Source of the DNA: Actinospica robiniae DSM 44927
GTDB taxonomy: Bacteria > Actinomycetota > Actinomycetes > Streptomycetales > Catenulisporaceae
DNA length: 64,000 nucleotides
Direction of reading: 5' to 3'
Assembly (NCBI RefSeq): GCF_000504285.1
Contig: NZ_KI632511.1
Coordinates: 3,903,372 to 3,967,371 of the forward strand
Every line of letters begins with the position of its first letter. Position 1 is the first letter of the stretch. Of the stretch, positions 14,456-19,666 are shown one piece after another. The notes below the pieces were generated by a model, which was given only the letters and a program-made list of their open reading frames with translations, was not told the origin of the DNA and did not search any database. Position numbers and translations under genes: made by a program.

Positions 14456-16078
14456 GTGACGCAAACTCAGAGCACCGGCATGTCCCGGCGGAACCTGCTC
14501 CGCGCGGTGGGCATCAGCGGCGGCGCGGGCACCATGTTCGCCGCCATGGGGGCACTCGGCCTCGCGCCCACCGCGCAGGCCGCCACCGCGGCGGCGTTCA
14601 CTCCGCCGAGCGTCTCGGACTTCCACCTCACCGGCCGCGGCGCGGCGAAAGTCGTGATCCTCGGCGGCGGGATCGCGGGCCTGGTCTCCGCGTACGAACT
14701 GGGCAAGGCCGGCTATCAGTGCACGATCCTCGAGCCGCGCGACCGCACCGGCGGACGCAACTTCACCGCCCGCAACGGCACCGAGCAGACCGACCTGTTC
14801 GGCAACAGGCAGGTCTGCGGCTTCAGCGAGGCCCAGTACATGAACTGCGGCCCGGCCCGGCTCGCACAGTGGATGGTGACGCTCGACTACTGCCGCGAAC
14901 TCGGCGTCCCCATCGAGGTTTTCACCAACGTCAACGCCGACGCGTACATCTACAACGAGTCCAGCGGCATGACGCCCGGGCACCCGGTGCGCTACCGCAC
15001 CGCCAAATCCGACGTCTACGGCTATGTAGGCGAGCTGCTCGCGAAGGCGAGCGACCAGGGCGCACTGGACTCGGAACTGACCGCCACCGACAAAGAGCAC
15101 CTGATCTCGTTCCTCGAGGACTGGGGCCAGCTCTCCGGAGCGTCCCATGGCTACGCCTACACGGGAGGACCCAACCGTGGATACAACCCGTACCCCGGAG
15201 CAGCCGGTTCTCCCGGCACGGTGCTCGGACCGGTGCCCAGCCTCTCGGACGTCTTCGCCTCCGGCGTCGGGCAGTACTTCTCCTTCGAGTTCGAATTCGA
15301 CCAGGCGATGCTGATGTTCCAGCCGGTCGGCGGCATGGACCAGATACCCAGGGCTCTGACCAAGGCCGTCGGCGCGCAGAAGGTGCGGCTCGGCTGCCAG
15401 GCCACGAACGTCGAGCAGCGAACGGACGGCGTGACCGTCACCTACACCGACGCATCCGGCCACGCCAAGGCGATCGAGGCGGACTACTGCATCGCGGCGA
15501 TGCCCCCGCACCTGCTGGCCGAACTGCCGCACAACCTCGGCTCCGCCGTGCAGAGCGCACTGACCGCCATCACCCCCGCCTCGGCCAGCAAGATCGGCCT
15601 CGAATACAAGAGCCGCTGGTGGGAGACCGACCACCGCATCTACGGCGGCATCACCGAGACCGACCTGGACCTCACCCACATCTGGCACCCCTCTCACGGA
15701 TTCCACGGCGAGCGCGGCGTGATGATCGGCTACTACAACTACGGGTCCGACGCCGATGCTTACGGCCGTATGACGCCCGCCCAGCGCGAAGCCCGCGCCA
15801 CCGAACTCGGCGCGCGCATCTACGGCCCCAAGTATCAGACCGAGCTCGCCTCGTCCTTCTCCCAGTCCTGGCGCTTCATCCCCCACCTCGAGGGCGCCTG
15901 GCACAACCTGCCCGGCTACACCCCCGACGCCGCGATCCTCCAGCCCCTCAACAACCCCACCGGGCGAGTTCTCTACGCCGGCGACTGGCTCTCCTATCTG
16001 GACGCCTGGCAGCACGGCGCGATCACCTCCGCCCGCAAGGCCGTCACCGCCCTGCACTCCAGGGTCATGTCCGCATAG
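14456..16078 (+). CDS. Tat-exported flavin-dependent amine oxidase / L-amino-acid oxidase
   Basis: A 540-residue FAD enzyme expected to oxidise an amine or L-amino acid, giving imine, hydrogen peroxide and, after hydrolysis, ammonia. The N-terminus carries a twin-arginine signal (SRRNLLRAVG, then a hydrophobic stretch to AQAAT), so it is folded and exported. The FAD-binding dinucleotide motif is VVILGGGIAGLVSAYELGKA near residue 65. The second flavin contact is near the end (VLYAGDWLSYLDAWQHGAI). Start GTG at 14456 with AAGGAG eight bases upstream. It stands alone between terminators. Substrate preference (aromatic L-amino acids are common for this size class) is inference. Confidence 0.88.
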   Translation: MTQTQSTGMSRRNLLRAVGISGGAGTMFAAMGALGLAPTAQAATAAAFTPPSVSDFHLTGRGAAKVVILGGGIAGLVSAYELGKAGYQCTILEPRDRTGGRNFTARNGTEQTDLFGNRQVCGFSEAQYMNCGPARLAQWMVTLDYCRELGVPIEVFTNVNADAYIYNESSGMTPGHPVRYRTAKSDVYGYVGELLAKASDQGALDSELTATDKEHLISFLEDWGQLSGASHGYAYTGGPNRGYNPYPGAAGSPGTVLGPVPSLSDVFASGVGQYFSFEFEFDQAMLMFQPVGGMDQIPRALTKAVGAQKVRLGCQATNVEQRTDGVTVTYTDASGHAKAIEADYCIAAMPPHLLAELPHNLGSAVQSALTAITPASASKIGLEYKSRWWETDHRIYGGITETDLDLTHIWHPSHGFHGERGVMIGYYNYGSDADAYGRMTPAQREARATELGARIYGPKYQTELASSFSQSWRFIPHLEGAWHNLPGYTPDAAILQPLNNPTGRVLYAGDWLSYLDAWQHGAITSARKAVTALHSRVMSA

Positions 16079-16266: not shown

Positions 16267-16371
16267 TGGCACCACTTCACGAGCCTCGTGGCACCATCCG
16301 ACTGCCGCTCGGGTGCCATTGGGAGCCATAGTGGGTTGCAGTGGTGCCAAAATGGTGCCACAGTGGAGCCA
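16267..16371 (+). promoter_or_regulatory. Helically phased array of TGGNGCCA boxes before the RHH/ABC operon
   Basis: Eight-base boxes occur at 16267 and 16289 (TGGCACCA), 16311 (GGGTGCCA), 16321 (GGGAGCCA), 16342 and 16353 (TGGTGCCA) and 16364 (TGGAGCCA). Start-to-start distances are 22, 22, 10, 21, 11 and 11 bases, so all boxes fall on about the same face of the helix. The last box overlaps the ATG at 16371. The first two boxes are in the opposite orientation. Likely an autoregulatory operator for the ribbon-helix-helix-type product of the first gene. Confidence 0.65.
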
Positions 16372-16907
16372 TGGAACTCACCCAGTACGTCGAAAACCTG
16401 CGGCGGGAACTGGCCACCGCGGCCGAGGTCGGCGGCGAGGAGGCCCGATCGCTGGCCGACCGGCTGCTCGCGCCGCTCGACGCCGCGGTGCGGCTCACCC
16501 TGCTGGAGGCGCTCTCCGACGCCGCCGACGAGATCTCCGCCGAACTCGCGCCCGGCTCGGTCGACGTCCGGCTGCGCGGCGGAACGGCCGGGTTCGTCGT
16601 GACGCCGCCCGCGCCCGCCGCGCCCCCGGCCGCCGAGGACGCCGCCGCCGGCCGGGGGCCGGTCGACGTGCGGCTGCCGCTCGGCGAGGGCGACGAGGCG
16701 GCCATGGTCCGGATCAACCTGCGGCTGCCCGCCAATCTCAAGGCCCTGATCGAGAACGCGGCCGCGGCCGGCGGCCTCTCGGTCAACGCCTGGATCGTCC
16801 GGGCGGCGGCCGCGGGCCTGGCCGGCGAGGGCCGGCTCGGCGCCCGGCCCGTCGGGCAGCAGACCGACCGCGTCGTCGGCGCGCACTACACCGGCTGGGC
16901 CCGCTGA
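16371..16907 (+). CDS. Ribbon-helix-helix (HicB/Arc-like) domain protein, probable operon regulator
   Basis: A 178-residue protein. The N-terminal half is helical and acidic (about 1-60). An Ala/Pro-rich linker follows. The C-terminal part reads VRINLRLPANLKALIENAAA then GGLSVNAWIVRAA, the strand-helix-helix of ribbon-helix-helix DNA-binding proteins of the HicB/Arc type. The ATG at 16371 has GGAG just upstream; an in-frame ATG ten codons earlier lies within the box array. It is the first gene of an operon with a DUF4097 protein and a drug-type ABC exporter. It probably binds the TGGNGCCA boxes at its own promoter. No toxin gene is adjacent, so a toxin-antitoxin role is not supported. Confidence 0.75.
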   Translation: MELTQYVENLRRELATAAEVGGEEARSLADRLLAPLDAAVRLTLLEALSDAADEISAELAPGSVDVRLRGGTAGFVVTPPAPAAPPAAEDAAAGRGPVDVRLPLGEGDEAAMVRINLRLPANLKALIENAAAAGGLSVNAWIVRAAAAGLAGEGRLGARPVGQQTDRVVGAHYTGWAR

Positions 16908-16962: not shown

Positions 16963-17856
16963 ATGACCCGCTCCACCTTCAGTACCCCGTCCGCCGTCAC
17001 CGTCGCCCTCGACCTGTACGTCGCCGACGTCCGCTTCGCCGTCTCCGACCGCGTCGAGACGATCGTCGAGGTCGAGCCGAGCGACCCGAACAAGGGCGCC
17101 GACGTCAAGGCCGCCGAGAACACCCGCGTCGAGTATGACGAGGCCACCCGCACCGTGAGCGTGGTCTCGAAGAAGCCCCGGAGCAGGTTCATGAACTTCA
17201 GCAGCAAGCGGCCCGAATCGATCAACGTACTGATCCAGCTGCCGACCGACTCCGACGTGCGCGGCGAGGCCGATCTCGGCGACTTCCAGGCCGACGGCGT
17301 GCTGGGCACCGTCACGCTCAAGACCGGCCTCGGCTCGCTCCGGTTCGCCGAGACCGGCCCGCTGGAGCTGCGCTACGGCGTCGGCACGATCGTCGTCGAG
17401 GGGATCAGCGGATCCGCCGCGGTGCACACCGGTTCCGGCGACATCCGGATCGGCGCCGTGGACGGCACCGCGGAGATCTCCAACAGCAACGGGAAGGTGC
17501 GCGTCGGCGTCGTCACCGGCCCGGCGAACGTCAAGGCCGCCAACGGCTCGGTGTTCGTCGAACGGGCGCTGTCCGACATCACCGCCACCAGCGCCAACGG
17601 CGAGGTGCAGATCGGCGAGGTCGTACGCGGCAAGGTCAACGCCACCTCGAAGAACGGCAGCGTCGAGGTCGGCGTCCGCGAGGGCAGCGCCGCCTGGCTG
17701 GAGCTGGACACCGAGGTCGGCCGGGTCTACAACGAGCTGACCTCCACCGACGCGCCGGAGACCGGCGACCCGGTGGACAAGGTCGAGGTGCACGCCGGCA
17801 CCAAGCTCGGCGACGTCACCGTCCGCCGCGCGCCCCGGCTGGAGGACCAGGCGTGA
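16963..17856 (+). CDS. DUF4097-type beta-strand repeat protein
   Basis: A 297-residue protein built of short repeated strands with the pattern GxGxIxV/xxxNGxVxV, for example VHTGSGDIRIGAV, ISNSNGKVRVGVV and ATSANGEVQIGEV. This forms the single-stranded beta-helix of DUF4097 (adhesin-like) proteins. There is no signal peptide, so it is cytoplasmic. The ATG at 16963 lies 55 bases after the RHH gene, and its stop overlaps the GTG of the ATPase gene by four bases, which implies translational coupling. Proteins of this family often sit beside ABC exporters or membrane stress sensors; the role here may be sensing or regulating the exporter. Confidence 0.85.
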   Translation: MTRSTFSTPSAVTVALDLYVADVRFAVSDRVETIVEVEPSDPNKGADVKAAENTRVEYDEATRTVSVVSKKPRSRFMNFSSKRPESINVLIQLPTDSDVRGEADLGDFQADGVLGTVTLKTGLGSLRFAETGPLELRYGVGTIVVEGISGSAAVHTGSGDIRIGAVDGTAEISNSNGKVRVGVVTGPANVKAANGSVFVERALSDITATSANGEVQIGEVVRGKVNATSKNGSVEVGVREGSAAWLELDTEVGRVYNELTSTDAPETGDPVDKVEVHAGTKLGDVTVRRAPRLEDQA

Positions 17857-18815
17857 CCGCCGCGATATCGCCGGGCACCGGCACGACCCTCGCCATCTCG
17901 GCCCGCGGCCTGCGCAAGTCCTTCGGCGAGAAGACCGTGCTCGACGGCATCGACCTGAGCGTGCGGTCCGGCACGATCCTGGCCCTGCTCGGCCCGAACG
18001 GGGCCGGCAAGACGACCGCCGTGCACCTGTTGACCACCTACCTCAAGCCCGACGCCGGCGAGATCCGGATCGCGGGGCGCGACCCTGCGACCGACGCGCA
18101 GGCGGTCCGCCGCACGATCGGCGTCACCGGCCAGTTCTCCGCCGTCGACGGCTACCTCACCGGCCGGGAGAACCTGCTGCTGATGGCGGACCTGCACCTG
18201 CTGCCGCGGGACGTCGGGCGCCGCCGGGCCGCGGACCTGCTGGAGCGGTTCGAGCTGGCGCAGGCCGCCGACAAGCCCGCGTCGACCTATTCCGGCGGCA
18301 TGAAGCGCAAACTCGACCTGGCCATGACCCTGGTCGGCAAGCCCAGGGTGATCTTCCTGGACGAGCCGACCACGGGCCTGGACCCGCGCAGCCGGCGCAC
18401 CATGTGGGAGATCATCCGCGGGCTGGTCGCGGAGGGGACGACCATCCTGCTCACGACCCAGTATCTGGACGAGGCCGACCAGCTCGCACACCGGGTCGCG
18501 GTGCTCGACGGCGGCCGGATCGTCGCCGAGGGCACGCCCGCCGAGCTCAAGGCGCGCATCCCCGGCGGCCACATCGAGCTCTCCTTCGCGGACAGAGCGC
18601 GCCTCGACGCCGCCGCGGCGACGCTCGACCCCACCTCCCGCGACGACGACGGCCTCACCCTGCAACTGCCCGGAGACGGAAGTGTCAGCACCCTGCGGGC
18701 GCTGCTGCGCCGGCTGGACGACGCGCAGGTCGACGTCGAGTCGCTGAGTGTGCACACCCCCGACCTCGACGACGTCTTCTTCGCCCTCACGGGTAAGAAG
18801 GGAACCGACACATGA
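17853..18815 (+). CDS. ABC transporter ATP-binding protein, DrrA-like
   Basis: A 320-residue ATPase of the daunorubicin-resistance (DrrA) class that energises export of drugs or lipids. Walker A is GPNGAGKTT near residue 49, the signature is YSGGMKRKLDLA, and Walker B is VIFLDEPTTGLDPRSR followed by the H-loop region LLTTQYLDEADQLAHRV. The C-terminal 80 residues are the DrrA-type regulatory extension ending in HTPDLDDVFFALTGK. The start is GTG at 17853, overlapping the previous stop; the stop overlaps the ATG of the permease by four bases. The three genes are coupled. Confidence 0.95.
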   Translation: MTAAISPGTGTTLAISARGLRKSFGEKTVLDGIDLSVRSGTILALLGPNGAGKTTAVHLLTTYLKPDAGEIRIAGRDPATDAQAVRRTIGVTGQFSAVDGYLTGRENLLLMADLHLLPRDVGRRRAADLLERFELAQAADKPASTYSGGMKRKLDLAMTLVGKPRVIFLDEPTTGLDPRSRRTMWEIIRGLVAEGTTILLTTQYLDEADQLAHRVAVLDGGRIVAEGTPAELKARIPGGHIELSFADRARLDAAAATLDPTSRDDDGLTLQLPGDGSVSTLRALLRRLDDAQVDVESLSVHTPDLDDVFFALTGKKGTDT

Positions 18816-19666
18816 GCGCCATGACGTTGCCGGACACCGGTCTCGACGCCGCTGCCGGCAAGACCCGCTCGCACGCCTTCGTCCACACGAGGGTCATGCT
18901 GCGCCGCAACCTGCGGCACATGCAGCGCTATCCGTCGCTGACCCTCATGATCACCCTGATGCCGCTGGTGTTCCTGCTCCTGTTCGTCTACGTCTTCGGC
19001 GGGACGCTCGGATCGGGCCTGGGCCCCGGCATGCCGGCCGGCCTGCACGGCGGCCGGTCCGCTTACGCGGACTACGTCTCCCCGGCGATCATCCTGATGG
19101 CCGTGGCCGCGGCGGCGCAGGGAACGGCGATCGCCGTCGCCCAGGACATGACCGAGGGCGTCATCGCCCGATTCCGCACCATGGCGGTGGCCCGGTCCTC
19201 CGTGCTCACCGGGCACGTGGTGGGCGCGACGATCCAGACGATGATCGGCGTCGTGGTGGTCACGGCCGCCGCGATCGGCGTCGGATTCCGGCCGCACGCG
19301 CACGTGGCCGAGTGGTTCGCCGCGTTCGGCGTGGTGCTGCTGCTCACCTTCGCCGTCACCTGGCTGTGCGTCGGCCTGGGCCTGTCGGCCAAGAGCGTGG
19401 AGACCGCGAGCAACTCGCCGATGTTCCTGATCCTGTTGCCGTTCCTCGGCAGCGGCTTCGTCCCCACCGCCTCGCTGCCGACCGGAATGCGCTGGTTCGC
19501 CGAGTACGAACCCTTCACCCCGGTCAACGAGACCCTGCGCGGCCTGCTGACCGGCACGAGGATCGGCGACAACCTGAGCATCACGATCGCGTGGTGCGCG
19601 GGAACCGCAGTGCTCTCCTACGTCTGGTCCCGGCGGCTCTACGAGCGCGAACCGCGTCCGAGCTGA
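18812..19666 (+). CDS. ABC-2 type transporter permease, DrrB-like
   Basis: A 284-residue ABC-2 permease with six predicted helices. The opening HTRVMLRRNLRHMQRYPSL, then a hydrophobic run MITLMPLVFLLLFVYVFGG, is typical of DrrB. Later segments include the loop DMTEGVIARFRTMAVARSSV and FVPTASLPTGMRWFAEYEPF, both ABC-2 hallmarks. It partners the ATPase immediately upstream to form an exporter in the cytoplasmic membrane. It is the last gene of the operon and is followed by a strong hairpin. The exported compound is unknown; no biosynthetic genes adjoin. Confidence 0.95.
   Translation: MSAMTLPDTGLDAAAGKTRSHAFVHTRVMLRRNLRHMQRYPSLTLMITLMPLVFLLLFVYVFGGTLGSGLGPGMPAGLHGGRSAYADYVSPAIILMAVAAAAQGTAIAVAQDMTEGVIARFRTMAVARSSVLTGHVVGATIQTMIGVVVVTAAAIGVGFRPHAHVAEWFAAFGVVLLLTFAVTWLCVGLGLSAKSVETASNSPMFLILLPFLGSGFVPTASLPTGMRWFAEYEPFTPVNETLRGLLTGTRIGDNLSITIAWCAGTAVLSYVWSRRLYEREPRPS

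Follow-up and report, generated by a model that had tools for sequence, protein, structure and literature searches.

A helix-phased array of palindromic boxes across a predicted leaderless promoter, probably the operator of an autoregulated RHH–Toastrack operon in Actinomycetes

Organization of the locus

The window (the whole 64-kb stretch of DNA that was analysed) carries seven copies of a short box at 16267–16371, leading into the start codon of a gene for a ribbon-helix-helix (RHH) protein. This gene is followed on the same strand by a DUF4097 (Toastrack) gene and by genes for the ATPase and permease of a DrrAB-type ABC exporter. The features are listed below; boxes have no assigned strand, and negative positions are counted from the predicted transcription start.

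16267..16274, no strand, upstream box TGGCACCA, exact palindromic half-sites
16289..16296, no strand, upstream box TGGCACCA, exact
16311..16318, no strand, upstream box GGGTGCCA, one outer mismatch
16321..16328, no strand, upstream box GGGAGCCA, one outer mismatch
16336..16341, + strand, predicted -35 hexamer TTGCAG, 17 bp from the -10
16342..16349, no strand, core box 1 TGGTGCCA, -29 to -22, occupying the -35/-10 spacer
16353..16360, no strand, core box 2 TGGTGCCA, -18 to -11, its final two bases being the first two of the -10
16359..16364, + strand, predicted -10 hexamer CACAGT, pattern [CT]AnnnT
16364..16371, no strand, core box 3 TGGAGCCA, -7 to +1, its last base being the A of the ATG
16371..16907, + strand, gene of the putative RHH autoregulator, 178 aa, ATG at the predicted +1 (leaderless)
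16704..16829, + strand, RHH domain (residues 112–153), strand residues R114-x-N116-x-R118
16716..16718, + strand, codon of Asn116, the best predictor of box sequence
16963..17856, + strand, DUF4097 (Toastrack) gene, constant partner
17853..18815, + strand, DrrA-type ABC ATPase, accessory
18812..19666, + strand, DrrB-type ABC-2 permease, accessory

The open reading frame as called mechanically begins at an in-frame GTG (16341), but homologues align from the ATG at 16371. A flavin amine oxidase gene lies upstream on the same strand (14456–16078), with no evident operon link.

The box array

Five of the seven boxes are exact copies of TGGNNCCA and two have one outer mismatch, a box being called where at least five of the six outer bases of TGGNNCCA agree. 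From 16267 to 16371 the steps from one box to the next are 22, 22, 10, 21, 11 and 11 bp, and all seven boxes share one phase within about 1.3 bp at a period of 10.75 bp, which bears out the initial annotation of at least seven boxes on one face of the helix. TRF calls an 11-bp tandem array at 16342–16371 only. A density of five exact copies of TGGNNCCA per 112 bp was reached in none of 20,000 first-order Markov simulations (simulated maximum, 2), and other 105-bp stretches of the window hold at most one exact copy each. Over the entire window, the loose motif TGGNGCCA is present at its expected frequency (11 observed vs 12 expected, no enrichment), so that the unusual part is the clustering. 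The tandem pattern TGGYRCCANNNTGGYRCCA, with the core TGGYRCCA-3-TGGYRCCA, occurs a single time in the 9.9-Mb genome.

The outer bases of the box are palindromic and its orientation is carried by the central dinucleotide alone, which at the same position in relatives is CA, TG or CG. The apparent reversal of the first two boxes therefore means little, and the switch of orientation or second dimer stack that had been read into it is not upheld.

Conservation across Actinomycetes

Homologues of the RHH gene were found in at least 574 stretches of the GTDB contigs, and in 102 of 297 sampled Actinomycetes genomes. The comparison set consists of 188 distinct homologous genes having upstream DNA; L192, which has a misplaced start and lacks boxes, was kept in the counts. 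Common to nearly all of these is a layout of three 8-bp boxes at exact 11-bp steps, lying across the promoter and the start codon. The three-box site scores at least 22/24 in 164 of the 188 genes; among roughly 3,600 other ATGs of these loci, 2 score as high. Box 2 starts at -18 in 171 genes and at -19 in 16. The homologous genes thus have an operator-like series of repeated short boxes at their own promoters. This comparison of orthologous operons, which had been proposed as a check, speaks in favour of an operator, and it backs the earlier prediction of a cooperative RHH operator, on one helix face, heading an operon for a DUF4097 protein and a DrrAB-type exporter.

Further boxes extend upstream. 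Loci whose protein has Asn at residue 116 (Asn-type) carry about 10 exact boxes per kb in the first 200 bp upstream of box 1 and less than 1 per kb beyond that; the frequency in coding DNA is 0.04 per kb. The distance of upstream boxes to box 1 is periodic, at 10.5–11 bp. The Rayleigh power is 28 for the 51 boxes outside Streptomyces and 45 for the 67 boxes of Thr/Ser-type loci, and in both cases 0 of 2000 locus-shift permutations gave a value as high. The nearer boxes of Streptomyces show weaker phasing (9 of 2000 permutations). This genus often has boxes of the same type densely clustered again at 120–200 bp upstream of box 1, with frequent 10-bp steps; such a cluster may allow looping or an extended filament.

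Two other elements were seen in these upstream regions. One, near TTTCCGCAGGTCAG, is conserved in 32 of 62 Streptomyces-type loci (e.g. L030, L045, L048, L078), about 83–105 bp upstream of the RHH ATG and between the proximal and distal box clusters; outside this element, these loci contain its core GCAGNYCAG at 0.05 per kb. The other, GTTTCGCGTGAAAC, is found 80–150 bp upstream of the RHH ATG in six loci of the Catenulispora group (L003, L004, L006, L007, L008, L009) and is absent from the window. We take it to be one base away from the actinobacterial parS consensus, GTTTCACGTGAAAC.

The RHH protein

The protein contains a strand-helix-helix DNA-binding domain of the RHH (MetJ/Arc) type. In Pfam, TacA1 scores over its gathering threshold while RHH_1, Arc and HicB fall slightly under theirs. 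In the structure model (mean pLDDT 81), two helices and a beta hairpin make up an N-terminal unit (residues 3–78, pLDDT mostly above 90), which a disordered linker connects to the RHH helices at 121–133 and 138–153. These come after the strand sequence MVRINLRLP, where DSSP draws no strand in the monomer model. Arc is the top structural match in Foldseek, with a probability of 1.00 but an E-value of 0.14, and no PDB match to the N-terminal unit was returned by the structural search. A sequence search of the PDB gave TAL-effector matches that are sums of about 20 stretches of 2–8 bits each, and these were dismissed as artefacts of repeats. In the profile alignment, residues 114, 116 and 118 of the protein correspond to residues 9, 11 and 13 of Arc, which read the bases of the Arc operator; R114 and R118 are invariant among 85 diverse homologues. 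At the extreme C-terminus, after a disordered stretch, the protein and its homologues carry a strongly conserved G-x-x-[FYHL]-[ST]-G-W, which is possibly a docking motif.

Gene-site co-occurrence and residue 116

Gene and site were compared in 21 related genomes, a very weak match in G002 not being scored as an RHH gene. Of the 16 near relatives with an RHH gene, 15 have the strict tandem site once per genome, ahead of that gene; the 5 relatives without the gene have no such site. The single exception lacks the strict tandem pattern, one of its boxes being TGGTGTCA.

Box sequence varies with the protein. Among its 178 columns, residue 116 has the most mutual information with box bases 3 and 6 (0.61 of 0.95 bits); the next column has 0.46 bits, a value also reached by columns that track phylogeny. 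Proteins with Asn116 go with G-type TGG..CCA boxes in 109 of 113 cases, and those with Thr or Ser116 with TGA..TCA or mixed boxes. The mixed boxes TGACGCCA are frequent with Ser/Thr proteins, so the residue-box code is loose. In two Catenulispora genomes, a Ser116 paralogue adjoins TGACGTCA boxes in the same layout, and the Asn116 copy has TGGYRCCA boxes. On the tree, residue 116 changes about 6 times and box type about 15 times, with supported branches forcing only one residue change. With so few supported switches, a tree-based pair test of the association did not attain significance, and the association is partly due to shared ancestry. As judged from these sequences, it supports, and does not prove, the view that residue 116 sets the box type.

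Short palindromes of this kind could be read by other dimeric regulators, and one may ask whether some other, global regulator binds them, the RHH gene being merely a target. This is improbable given a tandem site that occurs once per genome, only before the RHH gene, and is absent from relatives without that gene, and given a box sequence that tracks the reading residue of the RHH protein itself.

The partner genes

The gene next to the RHH gene encodes a DUF4097/Toastrack protein in 173 of 178 homologous loci, whereas, of the 133 loci having enough downstream sequence, no more than 64 have DrrA at a distance of up to 2.5 kb. With Toastrack constant and DrrAB optional, the core of the operon is the RHH–Toastrack pair. 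The exporter, on which the initial annotation had laid the emphasis, is an addition that is common in Streptomyces and present in the window; as a conserved target it is ruled out by these counts. One sentence in the accessible text of PMC11237479 (2024) mentions that in actinobacteria Toastrack shares an operon with an ABC ATPase, a permease and an RHH factor; this is very likely the operon studied here. The same text proposes Toastrack as a scaffold for sub-membrane or envelope-stress signalling.

An RHH gene followed by a partner, with an operator across the promoter, is also the order expected of a type II toxin-antitoxin pair, in which the RHH protein would neutralise the product of the next gene and both would repress the operon. 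Public records such as WP_053763564.1 (L196) indeed call the RHH protein a “toxin-antitoxin system HicB family antitoxin”, and the RHH antitoxins AtaR, KacA and TacA2 are among its structural matches. The chance that this applies here is slim: the partner is a 297-aa Toastrack protein, from a family that PMC11237479 describes as an envelope-stress signalling scaffold, and is not a known toxin; the exporter is often part of the operon; and the RHH domain is C-terminal to a 100-residue domain, the HicB match reaching 20.2 bits vs a cut-off of 21. Neither HicA nor any other known toxin was encountered beside the RHH gene in the window or in the 173 of 178 loci, where DUF4097 stands instead. With that neighbour, the HicB antitoxin name is likely to be misleading.

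A predicted leaderless promoter

A -10 of the pattern [CT]AnnnT is present in 187 of the 188 homologues vs 0.6% of control ATGs, and TTG is found 17–18 bp upstream of it in 181 (control, 1.8%). The start codon is ATG in 187, and none of the 188 genes has a Shine-Dalgarno-like sequence. With the -10 about 7 nt ahead of the start codon and no Shine-Dalgarno sequence, the mRNA is predicted to be leaderless, with the A of the ATG as its first base. For S. coelicolor, a -10 consensus of TANNNT has been published, and 21% of primary starts there yield leaderless mRNAs (PMC4895711). At the homologous genes, [CT]AnnnT begins with the two bases that end box 2, runs through the 3-bp spacer and closes on the first base of box 3. 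It opens almost invariably with C, because box 2 has to end in CCA, so that operator and promoter share letters.

The position of the promoter also bears on whether the repeats might work in RNA, as an attenuator or leader hairpin. The palindromic boxes are able to pair with one another, but the region folds no better than shuffled sequence (z -1.5), and a start at the ATG would leave the boxes untranscribed; no Rfam match was found in four orthologous loci. A role in RNA is accordingly very improbable. Slippage is able to create short tandem arrays, but position, phase and sequence are kept over many Actinomycetes genera in which the flanks have diverged, and the likelihood of functionless repeats made by chance or slippage is close to nil.

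Proposed mechanism

The array is thus very probably an operator for autorepression by cooperative RHH dimers. At each 8-bp palindrome, an RHH dimer would insert its two-stranded sheet into the major groove, and three adjacent dimers, spaced by 11 bp along the same helix face, would occupy -29 to +1. We infer that such a stack would mask the start point as well as the -10 and the spacer between it and the -35, and so exclude RNA polymerase. Additional boxes that are weaker or lie farther away, spaced by multiples of about 10.5–11 bp, would lengthen the filament upstream and make the response steeper. The phasing of the boxes and the association with residue 116 point, indirectly, to binding that would be cooperative and sequence-specific. 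The box would be read by residues 114, 116 and 118, both arginines being fixed and residue 116 dictating the third base: G with Asn, A or either with Thr or Ser. Removal or inactivation of the RHH protein would turn on the operon, i.e. the Toastrack gene and, here, the ABC exporter. The inducing signal is possibly an envelope signal relayed by the Toastrack protein. The array could also permit activation at low occupancy.

A broader view is put forward tentatively, and with considerable doubt: a class-wide envelope-stress switch, hitherto undescribed, in which RHH proteins form a phased filament that may span about 200 bp (as two clusters some 100 bp apart, perhaps looped, in Streptomyces), Toastrack from the same operon relieves or tightens repression, and one strand residue determines the operator type and thereby keeps the paralogues of a cell separate.

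Relation to known systems and significance

Autorepression by RHH proteins via tandem operators is already known. The protein resembles Arc and Mnt of phage P22 in having an Arc-like RHH domain, the strand reading R-x-N-x-R here vs Q9-N11-R13 in Arc. Neighbouring Arc dimers lie 11 bp apart, the same spacing as that of the core boxes here. Differences from Arc/Mnt are the long N-terminal domain, at least three boxes per site, the predicted leaderless promoter, the chromosomal operon and the non-phage nature of the protein; no phage homologues were found in a phage search. MetJ, with boxes that repeat every 8 bp, and the plasmid omega repressor likewise cover a promoter with multiple RHH dimers bound to short tandem boxes, but unlike in either of them the boxes here come every 11 bp, near one helix turn. 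The omega repressor polymerises on heptad repeats, i.e. every 7 bp (PMC4803016). AvtR and SvtR, RHH proteins of archaeal viruses, begin at strong sites and oligomerise for about 100 nt into their own promoters (PMC5569661). In this they resemble the proposed array, and they differ in their archaeal promoters and imperfect inverted repeats, AvtR moreover consisting of two fused RHH motifs.

The operon in PMC11237479 shares Toastrack, ABC and RHH genes with the present one; the RHH–Toastrack pair without exporter is more widespread. Operator, promoter and specificity are not described in the accessible text of that paper, and a literature search found no description of the operator. As far as these searches show, what is new is the three-box core of 11-bp steps fused to a predicted leaderless promoter, its conservation across the class, and the variation of residue 116 with box sequence.

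A single 37-bp stretch would encode promoter, operator and start codon, with a grammar kept across a bacterial class. The homologous loci provide a natural series of well over a hundred protein-operator pairs with three residues at one position, of use for studying DNA recognition by the RHH strand and the avoidance of cross-talk between paralogues. The RHH–Toastrack pair is probably an envelope-stress module in antibiotic producers, and the promoter would offer a ready readout for the signal that it senses.
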